Shown piece after piece: positions 1,475-8,587 of a DNA stretch of 35,552 bases. The notes under the pieces were generated by a model. It worked only from the letters and a program-made list of their open reading frames with translations, was not told the origin of the DNA and searched no databases. Source of the DNA: a virus; the IMG/VR virus record IMGVR_UViG_3300031857_000650, positions 1 through 35,552 of that record. One strand, written 5' to 3'. Each line of letters begins with the position of its first letter. Position 1 is the first letter of the stretch. The position numbers and the translations under genes were made by a program.

Positions 1475-1965
1475 CAGATGGCTCTAGCGTATGGATGAAT
1501 GCGCTTCTCTGCATTTGCCCTTGCTTGCGCAGCGTCTTCCAATGTTTTGAAGTAACCCAATCCATAACGAGCACCGTTTAAACAGATGCTTGCTATCCAA
1601 CGTTTATTGTGTTTGCAGTAGTAAACGCCTTTAATTCCGCTTTTACTGTCAGCGTGCGCTTTTGTGTTTTGAGCATTCTCAGACCTTGAGCAGAGCCTAA
1701 GATTAGCAATCCTATTGTCTGACTTTACGCCGTTAATGTGATCTATAGATTTATCAGGGTAAACACGATTCACAAACATCCATGCCAACCTATGCGCCCT
1801 GTACAACTTGCCATCTATCCTAATGACGACATATCCGGATGAATCCTTGCATTGACACAAATCACCAGACCTCACGCCACCTTTCAAGTTAACTTTCCAG
1901 TTAAACATGCCAGTTTCAGCATTGAATGCCAGAACTTCTACAAGTCTTTCATGCGTCAATGTCAT
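1474..1965 (-). CDS. HNH homing endonuclease with AP2-like C-terminus
   Basis: A 163-residue free-standing homing endonuclease. The HNH core is at about residues 55-95 (YRAHRLAWMFV, then IDHINGVKSDNRIANLR with the catalytic histidines and asparagine). The C-terminal 60 residues (SGIKGVYYCKHNKRWIASI, then GYFKTLEDAAQA) form an AP2-like DNA-binding domain. It is fitted exactly between ninG and ninB, with ATGA (1962-1965) and TGATG junctions, so it inserted without breaking either gene. Expected action: a site-specific break in uninfected alleles to spread the element. Confidence 0.88.
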   Translation of the reverse strand: MTLTHERLVEVLAFNAETGMFNWKVNLKGGVRSGDLCQCKDSSGYVVIRIDGKLYRAHRLAWMFVNRVYPDKSIDHINGVKSDNRIANLRLCSRSENAQNTKAHADSKSGIKGVYYCKHNKRWIASICLNGARYGLGYFKTLEDAAQARANAEKRIHPYARAI

Positions 1966-2672
1966 TGTTTTTTCTCCAGCCTGTTTGCTTTCTTTTTCAT
2001 TACAGCCTTTAATCTTTTTAGATATTCAATTGAATACGTTGTCAGTTGATTTTGCGAACGAAGCCAATCAACTTTTTCGTCACCAATTTTTTGCCGTAGC
2101 CTTGGCTCGTATTCGCTCAGATTTCCGCTTTTCCAGTTGTTACAAACTGAGCAGCTTTTGTGAATGTTCCAAAGGTTGAACCTGACCGCTGAAGCTGCAC
2201 CAACACTGCGGAAGTGAGATGCGTGCCATTGACCATCCCAATTGGCTGGCTTGTCGCAACTGACGCACCCAAGATGCACATCACGCAAACGAACGTATCT
2301 GTTGACCTCTCTTTGCGCCTCTGCCGCCCATTCACTCCGTGTTTTGAGGCTTTCACGTTTGGCACGGTCTTTCAATGCCTCTGTTCGGGCTTGAATGGCA
2401 CCTTCCTTCGCTTTTCTTTTCGCGGCAATACTCATGGCACACTCAACAGAACAAACGCACTGTAGGGGCTTATTTGGCGTGAACAAGGTTTTGCAGACCT
2501 TGCACTTTTTCTGCTTTGGCTTTTTCGATCCGTTCCCGGACTGCAAGCCGTAACCCTTTGTAGACCCCTGAGTTGTCCGCTTCGAGTTCTTGGACTGCGT
2601 GTCGGCAGTGGTCAATCCATCCTGGCTGCTGGGCGAGATAGGTGTACCAATTGGCTGCGTGTTCAAAGTCAT
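1962..2672 (-). CDS. ninG: NinG/Rap-like recombination protein
   Basis: NinG (Rap) is a phage Holliday-junction-related recombination protein. Family signs: a zinc-finger-like KKCKVCKTLF...C..C near residues 56-78, a basic helical linker, and HLGCVSCDKPANWDGQWHASH, which carries the C-x-x-C and His cluster, then CSVCN. The ATG at 2672 forms an ATGA overlap with the upstream 45-codon gene. However, residues 1-45 are Ser/Thr/Gln-rich and share DNA with a better-looking ORF in another frame (2470-2694). A TTG at 2546 (194 aa, near the usual NinG length) may be the real start. Confidence 0.85.
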   Translation of the reverse strand: MTLNTQPIGTPISPSSQDGLTTADTQSKNSKRTTQGSTKGYGLQSGNGSKKPKQKKCKVCKTLFTPNKPLQCVCSVECAMSIAAKRKAKEGAIQARTEALKDRAKRESLKTRSEWAAEAQREVNRYVRLRDVHLGCVSCDKPANWDGQWHASHFRSVGAASAVRFNLWNIHKSCSVCNNWKSGNLSEYEPRLRQKIGDEKVDWLRSQNQLTTYSIEYLKRLKAVMKKKANRLEKKQ

Positions 2673-2694: not shown

Positions 2695-2806
2695 CCGTTA
2701 CCCAAAGTGCCCACGTAATTGCCGTTTCTGGAACATCGATGCCTGCTTTGACTGCATCAAGGATTCGCATGGCTTCAAGTTCTTCGTGGTTGAACTGATC
2801 ACGCAT
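2669..2806 (-). CDS. Hypothetical protein, 45 aa
   Basis: Starts at ATG 2806, which overlaps the end of the helicase-loader gene by eight bases (ATGCGTGA) and is preceded by AAGGAAATGCAGG, a plausible ribosome site. A longer in-frame start at 2851 would lie deep in the loader gene and is unlikely. The protein is a short acidic helix followed by a hydrophobic ITWALWVTGDLVG segment. No family recognised. Its TGA overlaps the ATG at 2672. Confidence 0.55.
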   Translation of the reverse strand: MRDQFNHEELEAMRILDAVKAGIDVPETAITWALWVTGDLVGQAA

Positions 2807-3641
2807 CCTGCATTTCCTTGCGTGCAATTGGCCGATAGCTAGGCCATGCAAACGGCACCCACTTAGCGCACTCGGTCATGCGGTCATAAACACGATCCCC
2901 GACAAACTGGCGAAACCCGTCTTTGTTTTGGTTCGTAAGCAAAATGGTTGGCATCAAATCCCGATAACGCTTATCCAGCACATCGAACAGATGCAGCATT
3001 TCGGAATCTGTGCCGTTCTGAACACCAATTTCGTCAATCACCAGCAATGGCACGCTTGCCAGTTGCGCAATCACCTCTTGCTCCGACAATTCAGAGTCCT
3101 TTCGCCACGTTCCGCGAATCTTTTGGAACAGCTCCATGCAGGTCATGTAACGACCAACATGGGCTGGCATCAGCGCCTGAAGAATGGCAATAGCAAGGTG
3201 ACTCTTTCCTGTGCCGGGCTGACCGCCGAATACCAGCCACGAGCCTTTTTTGTAAACATCAGACCAGTTATTGACGTACTCAGTAGCGATTGCCAATGCC
3301 TTGCGCTGTTCATCGGTTTCTGCCTTGAATGTGGCAAGTGTTCTGCCAACGAAACGAGCCGGAACACCAACTTCTTCAATCTGACGTGAGCGAAGATGCA
3401 TGGCAGCAATGCGGGCTGTTTCGGCCTTCTTCTCATCCTCGCGGCGCTTCATGTCAGCCGTACATGCTGGGCAAACAGACCAAATCGTCCGACTTGTCAG
3501 GCGCGTTCCATCGGCCATGTAAGGCCCATGTCTGTCGCAATTGACCTGCATGCGACCAACTTTTGCAATTCCCTTTGCCTGGCTCGTGTGCAACAAAAGC
3601 GAGTGCAGTTTGTCGTGGTGATTGTCAGAAAGAACCGTCAT
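2799..3641 (-). CDS. DnaC-like replicative helicase loader (AAA+ ATPase)
   Basis: A 280-residue ATPase that probably loads the host DnaB helicase at the phage origin, the role of DnaC or lambda P. The N-terminal zinc-binding module has C35, H38, C57 and C60 (CDRHG and CPAC). Walker A is GGQPGTGKS at 139-147 and Walker B LLVIDE at 199-204. A TNQN sensor-1 motif and a conserved DRMTE follow. The gene overlaps the end of the DUF1376 initiator by 17 bases, giving an initiator-loader pair as in other phages. Confidence 0.9.
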   Translation of the reverse strand: MTVLSDNHHDKLHSLLLHTSQAKGIAKVGRMQVNCDRHGPYMADGTRLTSRTIWSVCPACTADMKRREDEKKAETARIAAMHLRSRQIEEVGVPARFVGRTLATFKAETDEQRKALAIATEYVNNWSDVYKKGSWLVFGGQPGTGKSHLAIAILQALMPAHVGRYMTCMELFQKIRGTWRKDSELSEQEVIAQLASVPLLVIDEIGVQNGTDSEMLHLFDVLDKRYRDLMPTILLTNQNKDGFRQFVGDRVYDRMTECAKWVPFAWPSYRPIARKEMQDA

Positions 3642-4407
3642 CGTTTATCCCCTGTGTGTAGTCAATCGTTTCAAAACCCATGTGGCGAGAGGTGCCTGAA
3701 CCTTTGCGCTTTCCAGAAGAACGCATGCAAATTGCTTTCAGGTATTCGGATGGGTCAACCGGTTGCGTAACAACTGCGCTTCGGACTGCCTCAACGACGA
3801 TTTGCTCGCCATAGTCCTTCACCAACTTGCCGACAAACGAGCCGCATTGGGCTTTTGCAACGCCAGACCTTTCCAGCAAGCTTTTTCCAGCATCCCAAAG
3901 CTCTTTTTTGGTCAACTGGTCAACCATTGAGGCGTCAGCCTCAGCTACGTTAGTAGCTGTATTAATGGTTATTGGTTTATGGTTTATGGTTAGGGTTTCG
4001 TCTGGGTTATTGCTGGGTTCCGTATGGGTTGCGACTGGGTTCCCACTGGAAACCGACTGGAAACCCACTGGGTTATTTGTGGGTTCCGAGTGGGTTTTCT
4101 TTGGCCTTCCACCCTTGCGGCCATTGGTGTTGTTGCGTTCACGGATTTGGTGATATTCCGCTATCTCTTTTTCGCAGCGAGTGTGTCTCCAAACGTCACC
4201 ATCACGCTTGAAAAACGCTTCAAGAATGAGCGAAACAACTTCAGCATCTGCACCAACCTTGAGACCAATAACCTTTGCGTTATCTGGAAGTGGTTGCTCA
4301 GATTCGTAGTACATCCAGATCATCCGGATATACGCAGCAAGGTGCGTATCCGACAAACGCGATGTGTCTCTAATGAAGTCGCCAATATGGTGTTGGTAGT
4401 AATGCAT
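3625..4407 (-). CDS. DUF1376 replication initiator-like protein
   Basis: A 260-residue protein. Residues 1-85 are a DUF1376 domain (MHYYQHHIGDFIRDTSRLSD, then AAYIRMIWMYYESE), frequent in phage replication proteins encoded just before a DnaC-like loader. A central Pro/Asn/Thr linker (about 100-150) is encoded by an 11-bp tandem array (3993-4102). The C-terminal third (ELWDAGKSLLERSGV to YLKAIC) resembles the helicase-partner region of such initiators. The ATG at 4407 makes a TGATG junction with the upstream gene. By analogy with lambda O it likely binds the repeats in its own gene. Confidence 0.8.
   Translation of the reverse strand: MHYYQHHIGDFIRDTSRLSDTHLAAYIRMIWMYYESEQPLPDNAKVIGLKVGADAEVVSLILEAFFKRDGDVWRHTRCEKEIAEYHQIRERNNTNGRKGGRPKKTHSEPTNNPVGFQSVSSGNPVATHTEPSNNPDETLTINHKPITINTATNVAEADASMVDQLTKKELWDAGKSLLERSGVAKAQCGSFVGKLVKDYGEQIVVEAVRSAVVTQPVDPSEYLKAICMRSSGKRKGSGTSRHMGFETIDYTQGINDDGSF
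3993..4102. repeat. Ten tandem 11-bp iterons, probable phage replication origin
   Basis: Ten contiguous units of exactly 11 bases, each starting GGGTT (or GGAAA in two central units) and mostly ending CT or T: starts at 3993, 4004, 4015, 4026, 4037, 4048, 4059, 4070, 4081 and 4092. The GGAAACC units at 4048 and 4059 keep the phase. An AT-rich run of GGTTTAT-type repeats (3961-3991) adjoins the array and could be the unwinding element. The 11-base period is not a multiple of three, so the repeat is kept at DNA level although it is within coding sequence. Lambda ori lies in gene O in the same way. Confidence 0.75.
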
Positions 4408-4637
4408 CACACCCTCACCCATCCGGGTCGCACAGACCCGTTACTCGTTTTTCTTGGAAACAGCCCAGCGGGTTTGATCAGTCCATCCTTGCTGAGCAAC
4501 CGAAAAACCTTCCCCCATCCACGCTGATCCTGAAAGACGATTCCACACACCGCAGCAGCCTCAATAACTGCTTCTGGCGAAAATGGTTCGCTGGTTAGCT
4601 GGACGTACTTGTGCGCAAATCCGTATGCGTCAGTCAT
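4407..4637 (-). CDS. Hypothetical protein, possible winged helix, 76 aa
   Basis: Starts at ATG 4637, overlapping the previous stop (ATGA) with GGAG eleven bases upstream; a TTG two codons earlier is less likely. The sequence reads as three helices and a beta wing (EAVIEAAAVCGIVFQDQRGWG, KVFRLLSKDGLIKPAG, PGWVRV), which resembles a small winged-helix fold, but no named family is recognised. Lies directly upstream of the initiator and is coupled to it. Confidence 0.6.
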   Translation of the reverse strand: MTDAYGFAHKYVQLTSEPFSPEAVIEAAAVCGIVFQDQRGWGKVFRLLSKDGLIKPAGLFPRKTSNGSVRPGWVRV

Positions 4638-5070: not shown

Positions 5071-5262
5071 TCAAGCAACCTCTTTGATTGGCTTGAGGTG
5101 CTTTTTGTATTGAATCTGGATGACCTTCAGCCACCCTTTAGGGATGGAGCCTCGAAGTTTCCAGTTAGAGACTGTTGCCTGGGCAACGCCAAGAGATCGG
5201 GCCAAGGCGCTGACACCGCCAGCGGCTTCTATGGCTTGTTCAAGTGTTTGCATTGGGTTCAT
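5071..5262 (-). CDS. Cro/YdaS-like transcriptional repressor
   Basis: 63-residue helix-turn-helix protein of the YdaS/Cro type: EQAIEAAGGVSALARSLGV then AQATVSNWKLRGSIP, with the recognition helix at about residues 26-36. It is divergent from the CI gene and is the first gene of the leftward operon, the Cro position. Its ATG (5260-5262) lies only six bases from a perfect-looking -10 box (5269-5274), so the transcript is probably leaderless; an in-frame ATG at 5253 also lacks a ribosome site. Confidence 0.85.
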   Translation of the reverse strand: MNPMQTLEQAIEAAGGVSALARSLGVAQATVSNWKLRGSIPKGWLKVIQIQYKKHLKPIKEVA

Positions 5263-5268
5263 GTGGCG

Positions 5269-5297
5269 ATTATCACGATTGTGATAGTCGCTGTCAA
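5269..5297 (-). promoter_or_regulatory. Leftward early promoter (cro promoter)
   Basis: Read on the minus strand: -35 TTGACA (5297-5292), 17-base spacer, -10 GATAAT (5274-5269). The spacer is filled by the 16-bp operator. Near-consensus sigma-70 promoter for the cro/replication operon. The repressor promoter in the other direction is weak: TTGTGA at 5279-5284, 17 bases, then TTAGGA at 5302-5307. Confidence 0.85.
5271..5286. promoter_or_regulatory. Operator O1 for CI/Cro
   Basis: Perfect inverted repeat TATCAC-GATT-GTGATA between the -10 and -35 boxes of the cro promoter. Its reverse complement recurs with one outer-base change at 6628-6643 in the rightward early promoter, which is strong evidence that this is the repressor recognition site. 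Confidence 0.85.
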
Positions 5298-5315
5298 CAC
5301 ATTAGGAATGTCATC

Positions 5316-6047
5316 ATGTCTGACATGAATACAATCGCAACACGTTTGAAGTATTTGCGTGACCGCAAGGGCTGGACACAAACACAGCTTGCAGTCGTTG
5401 CCGATGTGTCTCAGGGCACAGTCGGAAACATTGAAGCCGGTAAGAGAGCGGGCAAGGGATCGCTCATCAAGCTAGCCAGGGTGCTTGATGCGTCGCTTGA
5501 TTGGCTGATAGACGGTGAAGGCCCGATGCTGATAAGTGAGTGGATCGAAGTACAGGCAAGACTGGTTGATGAGCCGGATCAAGTTTTGATACGCAACCAA
5601 ACTAACGTAGAGACGGCTGATTCACTTAAACCAAAGAAAGGGGTTCCCGTAGTGGGTGAAGTAAAGGGAGGTTCTGACGGCTACATAGATGAGCTGCAAT
5701 ACCCAGAGGGTCACGGCGATGGGTTTGTCGATTACCCAACAACCGACGCAAACGCATATGCGCTCAGAGTGCGCGGCGACTCCATGCACCCGCGTTACCG
5801 TGCCGGGGAGTACATCGTCATAGAGCCATCAATAGAGCCTCAGACAGGAGATGATGTTGTCGTTTCGACAACAGACGGAAGAAAACTTCTAAAGGAATTG
5901 AACTGGCAGCGTGACGGAGAGATACAGTTGTTAAGCGTCAATAACCACTATGGCCCATTGACGCTTCAGTCTTGCGATGTGATGTCTATCCATCTTGTCG
6001 CCGGTAGGGCAAGAAGAAGTGCGTTCGTTAAGGAGGTGAAGTCATGA
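5316..6047 (+). CDS. CI-like prophage repressor (HTH plus S24 peptidase)
   Basis: 243 residues. An N-terminal HTH_3/XRE domain (residues 8-65: GWTQTQLAVVADVSQGTVGNIEAGKRAG) is followed by an S24/LexA-like self-cleaving domain: PVVGEVKGGSDGY around the cleavage loop (112-123), GDSM with nucleophile S156, and the K190-K193 pair (GRKLLKE) supplying the general base. The usual Ala-Gly cleavage pair appears here as Gly-Gly. Start ATG 5316 has AGGA eight bases upstream. It should repress both early promoters through the shared operator and be inactivated by RecA during DNA damage. Confidence 0.92.
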   Translation: MSDMNTIATRLKYLRDRKGWTQTQLAVVADVSQGTVGNIEAGKRAGKGSLIKLARVLDASLDWLIDGEGPMLISEWIEVQARLVDEPDQVLIRNQTNVETADSLKPKKGVPVVGEVKGGSDGYIDELQYPEGHGDGFVDYPTTDANAYALRVRGDSMHPRYRAGEYIVIEPSIEPQTGDDVVVSTTDGRKLLKELNWQRDGEIQLLSVNNHYGPLTLQSCDVMSIHLVAGRARRSAFVKEVKS

Positions 6048-8562: not shown

Positions 8563-8587
8563 AGCCGCCTAACAAGCGGCTTTTTTT
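8563..8587 (+). terminator. Intrinsic terminator after ssb
   Basis: AGCCGC (8563-8568) / GCGGCT (8576-8581), seven-base loop and T run to 8587. The next ATG is at 8588, directly after the T run, so that gene has no independent ribosome site. Confidence 0.85.

Follow-up and report, generated by a model that had tools for sequence, protein, structure and literature searches.

Why should a phage gene carry, in the middle of its coding sequence, ten units of DNA repeated every 11 bp beside a run of AT-rich repeats? In the lambdoid phages, iterons and an AT-rich region lie in the middle of the O gene (PMC7466680), and lactococcal replisome organizers bind repeats within their own genes, which serve as ori (PMC8965321). 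Winged-helix Rep proteins, in addition, bind one strand of a repeat-built DNA unwinding element (DUE) situated beside iterons (PMC4081077). The in-gene iteron origin is thus a known principle, familiar from phage lambda. Here, we describe a computational analysis of two repeat arrays in a gene of the DUF1376 family, located in a window of 35,552 bases that corresponds to the IMG/VR record IMGVR_UViG_3300031857_000650. A sequence-only reading of this window had proposed that the arrays are a probable origin of replication.

The DUF1376 gene and its two repeat arrays

The window carries the gene set of a temperate phage, with a CI-like repressor and a Cro-like regulator in divergent orientation, and an integrase and structural genes further along. 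On the minus strand, the DUF1376 gene is followed in order by genes for a DnaC-like AAA+ loader, NinG, an HNH-AP2 protein and a NinB homologue; Cro, initiator, loader and NinG follow one another as they do in the PR operon of phage lambda. The features of the region are as follows.

1962-2672, minus strand: NinG/Rap homologue, downstream of the loader (NinG, E=5e-51)
2799-3641, minus strand: DnaC-like AAA+ helicase loader, directly downstream of the DUF1376 gene (IstB_IS21, E=2e-14; PHROG DnaC-like loader, E=3e-67)
3625-4422, minus strand: DUF1376 initiator gene, 265 aa, holding the proposed origin (PF07120; PHROG 'primosomal protein' matches)
3625-3918, minus strand: C-terminal helical domain (residues 168-236) and tail, proposed loader or helicase contact (predicted structure)
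3919-4116, minus strand: linker, residues 103-168, carrying both repeat arrays (pLDDT about 50-70)
3964-3991, minus strand: four AT-rich AACCANN units in exact 7-bp phase, a proposed DNA unwinding element (family-wide 7-bp signal)
3989-4098, minus strand: iteron array of ten 11-bp units; on the coding strand AACCCANNNNN x3, inverted GGTTTCC x2, AACCC x5
4117-4404, minus strand: N-terminal DUF1376 domain, predicted winged helix (AlphaFold2), proposed iteron binder
5071-5262, minus strand: Cro/YdaS-like regulator, start of the operon
5244-6047, plus strand: CI-like repressor (HTH and S24 peptidase), divergent

The loader gene overlaps the 3' end of the DUF1376 gene. Between the NinG and NinB homologues, at 1474-1965, lies a gene for an HNH endonuclease with an AP2 DNA-binding domain. 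The weakest 30-40-bp duplex of the window is found near the end of the NinG gene (about 1990-2040), where no repeats were noticed. Cumulative GC skew has a local minimum at 3-5 kb, which is uninformative on the origin because it coincides with the switch in gene direction at 5.2 kb. No DnaA boxes occur near the array, the single TTWTNCACA of the whole window lying at 8586, and a distant DNA search of the array region against phage records gave no match.

The initiator belongs to DUF1376 (PF07120; E=1.8e-20, 73.5 bits against a cut-off of 30.1), the only Pfam family that it matched at E<=0.01; neither Phage_rep_O (PF04492) nor a C-terminal Rep_Org_C domain (PF06926) was found. AlphaFold2 models the N-terminal domain with pLDDT above 90 as helix-helix-helix-wing-helix, the winged helix spanning residues 8-102. 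Structural matches to residues 12-103 include many winged-helix DNA-binding proteins at a weak Z of about 5, a Foldseek search with the predicted structure returned nothing at E<=0.001, and a family-profile sequence search of the PDB gave no match. From the model together with these weak matches, the N-domain is predicted to be a winged helix. The linker that follows is, judging from the same model, probably disordered.

Both arrays lie within this linker, where the sequence-only reading had placed them. The GGGTT cores, which read AACCC on the coding (minus) strand, start at 3993, 4004, 4015, 4026, 4037, 4070, 4081 and 4092, and two inverted units, GGAAACC at 4048 and 4059, hold the exact 11-bp phase between them; the array lies about 320 bp past the start codon. 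Of the claim of ten exact 11-bp iterons, the perfect phase of the ten unit starts from 3993 to 4092 and the eight identical 5-bp cores stand, whereas the 11-mers as wholes are not exact, the units having diverged outside the core. The swap to GGAAACC is likewise real, but the pair is not exactly central, because the coding-strand order is three direct, two inverted and five direct units. The idea that it marks a symmetric centre gained no specific support: weak palindromy is general among the units (41% of arrays at p<0.05, which is suggestive only).

At lag 11, matches occur at 58 of 88 positions, whereas 200 shuffles of the 35.5 kb never gave more than 42; the array is the strongest short-period array of the window, and no comparable 11-bp array occurs elsewhere in it. 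In a synonymous null that kept the protein and redrew the codons from the gene's own pool, none of 20,000 linker recodings had as many as eight AACCC cores in phase or equalled the 11-bp autocorrelation of the actual sequence. Selection acting on the DNA, which had been proposed on the ground that the period is not a multiple of the codon, is borne out by this loss of phase. The AT-rich 'GGTTTAT repeats' described beside the iterons also exist, and correspond to AACCANN x4 in exact 7-bp phase. In duplex stability, this element ranks among the weakest 0.2% of the window; its periodicity in the window gene alone has a p of about 0.01-0.02 against the synonymous null.

Phased repeats in homologues and in other initiator families

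Homologues were gathered by protein similarity alone and reduced to 151 non-redundant genes, and periods of 4-39 were scanned 3' of the N-domain against the synonymous null, under which about 1% of genes are expected at p<0.01. At this threshold, 40% of the genes had a signal at period 11, 31% at 22 and 9% at 33; for period 7 and its multiples the figures were 46% at 7, 25% at 14, 8% at 21 and 15% at 28, and all other periods were found in 0-5%. Period 11 or 7 reached p<0.05 in 129 of the 151 genes, as against 10-19 genes for control period pairs; since neither did so in the remaining 22, the array is common without being universal. Both signals reached p<0.01 in 36 genes, and in every one of these the 11-bp array is located 5' of the 7-bp array, with the starts of the best windows a median of 48 bp apart. 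The iterons of DUF1376 homologues fall into motif classes, AACCCA, GTTSAAC and GCGAACGC, which encode quite different peptides and are all in 11-bp phase, and across these classes the element that follows is AACCANN or closely related to it (e.g. CACCAGA). Persistence of iteron number and phase in homologues of divergent sequence had been named as a check on the origin proposal; for the phase it is observed, as the phase recurs with unrelated motifs, above a protein-preserving null. An ORF with a Walker-A motif begins within 150 bp downstream in only 27 of 136 loci (20%, against a background of 2%).

The scan detects repeats, not origins. It recovered two positive controls: lambda O, whose iterons are annotated in its record, at period 23 with p=0.001, and Tuc2009 Rep, whose annotation reads 'contains origin of replication', at periods 5, 10 and 11, likewise with p=0.001; the TP901-1 rep gene, with a known in-gene origin, gave no 11-bp signal.

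The same association emerged when the search began from DNA. A blind scan for AACCANN x5 across 2.9 million viral contigs gave at least 120 loci. Among the 120 matches listed, 117 are DUF1376 genes and all lie on the coding strand of an ORF; the other three are two ORF fragments without an N-domain and one ORF without family assignment. In the 120 bp 5' of the element, 103 non-redundant genes of this DNA-found set showed period 11 in 41% (p<0.01) or 71% (p<0.05), period 22 in 23%, and any other period in at most 7%. For AACCC x4, the matches listed lay inside DUF1376 ORFs in 33 of 120 cases at period 11, 1 of 74 at period 10 and 4 of 120 at period 12. Raw AACCC counts by period were considered as evidence and rejected: they prove nothing because period 12, perhaps as a codon multiple, also gives at least 120, and only gene context discriminates.

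Of 76 ORFs with AACCC arrays, the window's included, 31 belong to DUF1376 and 13 to DUF6291, and many of the remainder fall under the PHROG families 'replication initiation O-like' or 'DnaD-like helicase loader'. When the DUF1376 profile was compared with those of DUF6291 and of the DnaD-like AACCC-iteron initiators, no N-domain homology was detected. Read by eye, the iterons of these other families are followed by AT- or purine-rich repeats of short period that differ from AACCANN: AATGNN for DUF6291 and GTAAAGAAG-like units in DnaD-like genes. The DUF6291 genes (L037, L017, L079, L084, L119 and others) carry 11-bp AACCCC iterons and then AATGNN, which reads NVNVNDNVN in the protein, and apparently share the two-part layout in an unrelated initiator family. 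In the DnaD-like/O-like genes (L023, L035, L047, L087, L122 and others), 11-bp AACCC iterons precede purine-rich short repeats, which in several cases encode KEGKEGKE-type peptides.

The DUF1376 N-domain was also seen outside full-length initiators. At L003 178-756, just upstream of a complete DUF1376 initiator gene, it is joined to a stretch that looks HNH-like by eye, Pfam finding DUF1376 alone; the product could be a nuclease sharing the initiator's DNA-binding domain. Short ORFs made up of the N-domain alone lie upstream of the full-length initiator gene at L145 2501-2833 and L170 2501-2845, and are possible competitors or regulators of iteron binding. At about 3066-3130, L145 has a second run of what look like CCCAGTGGGTT units in 11-bp phase, located in the N-domain coding part (WVSRRLR codons).

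Exchange of N-terminal domains and relation to known origins

Iteron type tracks the winged-helix domain at the N-terminus rather than the C-terminal domain. On the N-domain tree, iteron class changes 10 times, whereas shuffled labels give a mean of 45 and a minimum of 39. Among pairs whose C-domains are at least 50% alike, the class differs in 18 of 21 with N-domains less than 45% identical, and in 1 of 136 with N-domains at least 60% identical. Part of this covariation is accounted for by co-inheritance through linkage, because the iterons adjoin the N-domain code. The nearest relative found, L002, is 96% identical to the window protein in the C-part and 32% in the N-domain, and has other repeats.

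Exchange extends to the lambda-O type. YdaU of the E. coli K-12 Rac prophage is a DUF1376 protein (E=2.7e-26), with the DnaC/IstB-like YdaV encoded downstream. In the C-terminal domain, YdaU shares 46% identity with the Gifsy-2 O protein, which has a Phage_rep_O N-domain (PF04492 match) and 22-bp, ATCCCCGAAAACGGGGATAGTT-like repeats (z=6.1). Identity in this domain is about 85% with the proteins of other Escherichia phages that carry a third, unassigned N-domain. These chimeras indicate that the same C-domain and kind of loader work with either N-domain and its repeats, and they back the earlier proposal of a lambda O-like system in a different family. Rac YdaU/YdaV thus shares with the window a DUF1376 initiator, a DnaC/IstB-like partner and 11-bp phased sites, about four of which, TGTTCAAAC-like, lie in the linker of ydaU (L606 4120-4977); it differs in the weaker 11-bp signal (p=0.02) and in having no AACCANN array. 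The Rac prophage is reported to have an active but repressed origin, oriJ (PMC3945230), for which the ydaU sites are a candidate position.

The window resembles lambda ori/O and its lambdoid relatives, Gifsy-2 included, in placing iterons and an easily melted AT-rich tract in the linker of an initiator gene, and also in its proposed N-terminal DNA-binding domain, adjacent loader gene and operon order. It differs in that their N-domain comes from another Pfam family (PF04492, which lambda O and Gifsy-2 match), in that the iterons are spaced by 11 bp, or one turn, rather than by the two turns of lambda (about 23) and Gifsy-2 (22), and in that AACCANN units in 7-bp phase make up its AT-rich part. 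In the iteron plasmids RK2 and F, the origin is separate from the rep gene. RK2 has DnaA boxes, unlike the region of the window array, and the Rep family of these plasmids is a different one. RK2 oriV with TrfA and F oriS with RepE share with the window iterons next to a repeat-built DUE and a winged-helix Rep (PMC4081077). Tuc2009 Rep2009 and TP901-1 ORF13 have direct repeats within their own gene as ori (PMC8965321), and Tuc2009 further shares the 11-bp phase (CAACCAAATGN), with a short array of 5-bp period (GGATA) after it. Tuc2009 Rep differs in having Rep_Org_C and no DUF1376 by Pfam, and TP901-1 in its lack of an 11-bp signal; an AACCANN array is absent from these lactococcal genes.

A candidate origin and its alternatives

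On comparative grounds, the origin reading is strongly supported. With a probability that we put at roughly 0.87, the arrays would constitute the replication origin of a temperate phage inside its own initiator gene, and the best reading of the sequences is a lambda-O-like in-gene origin whose initiator has an N-domain of another family, whose iterons are one turn long and whose unwinding element is built of 7-bp repeats. We infer that the winged-helix N-domain would bind the 11-bp iterons along one face of the DNA, where each helical turn presents one unit, and that the resulting nucleoprotein array would destabilise the adjacent AT-rich AACCANN element. Through the C-terminal domain, host DnaB and the DnaC-like loader would be delivered to the melted region.

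The array might instead be an operator through which the DUF1376 protein or another regulator controls transcription of the replication genes, with the origin elsewhere. Phased operator arrays exist, autoregulation is common among initiators, and the array does lie within an early operon. We nevertheless regard this role as improbable, given the position of the array mid-gene in the linker, far past the start codon, the AT-rich 7-bp array that follows it in every gene showing both, its swapping together with the N-domain, and an interchangeable Gifsy-2 module that consists of a lambda O N-domain with lambda-like iterons.

Selection might also act on the linker peptide (NPxxT, TINHKPIT), the DNA periodicity being a by-product. 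The linker does contain the 11-residue repeat noted by the sequence-only reading, in three copies (THSEPTNNPVG / FQSVSSGNPVA / THTEPSNNPDE), and N147, P150 and T152, within the 7-bp element, are nearly invariant over 65 homologues; but a null that holds the protein sequence exactly still loses the periodicity, neither 11 nor 7 is a codon multiple, and the iteron classes code for quite different peptides in a linker predicted to be disordered, which together make this explanation highly improbable. That a disordered, tolerant linker has simply accumulated a neutral tandem repeat by slippage, as such arrays arise easily, is a slighter prospect still: the same two periods, and not others, recur with different sequences in diverse phages, and the units have diverged outside the core while inverted units stay in phase. 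Slightest of all is a partition or incompatibility site with centromere-like iterons. Winged-helix centromere-binding proteins (AspA, pNOB8) are among the weak structural matches, but a plasmid-like partition role is not needed, because the phage has an integrase and the adjacent gene codes for a DnaC-like loader.

Going beyond an origin within the initiator gene, AACCANN may represent a new kind of unwinding element, nearly confined to DUF1376 and independent of iteron class, whose opened strand the initiator or the loader would read in steps of 7 nt. Together with the strand-biased short-period repeats that follow 11-bp iterons in the other initiator families, it would then belong to a general phage grammar of one-turn iterons and a short-period single-strand code; this extension is tentative, and we lean somewhat against it. 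As far as the literature searched extends, DUF1376 as an initiator, the family-wide 11-bp iterons and the near-diagnostic AACCANN element appear to be new. The search, which covered papers available without subscription, found none linking DUF1376 to iterons or an origin.

DUF1376 is a widespread phage family filed under 'unknown function', to which this evidence would assign the job of an origin-binding initiator. The near-diagnostic DNA signature would allow the origin to be predicted to the base pair, from sequence alone, in very many phages and prophages. The N-domain of the initiator and its iterons move as one cassette between C-terminal and loader partners, across Pfam families, and in E. 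coli K-12 the Rac prophage, with its known origin oriJ, offers an available test case in ydaU/ydaV.
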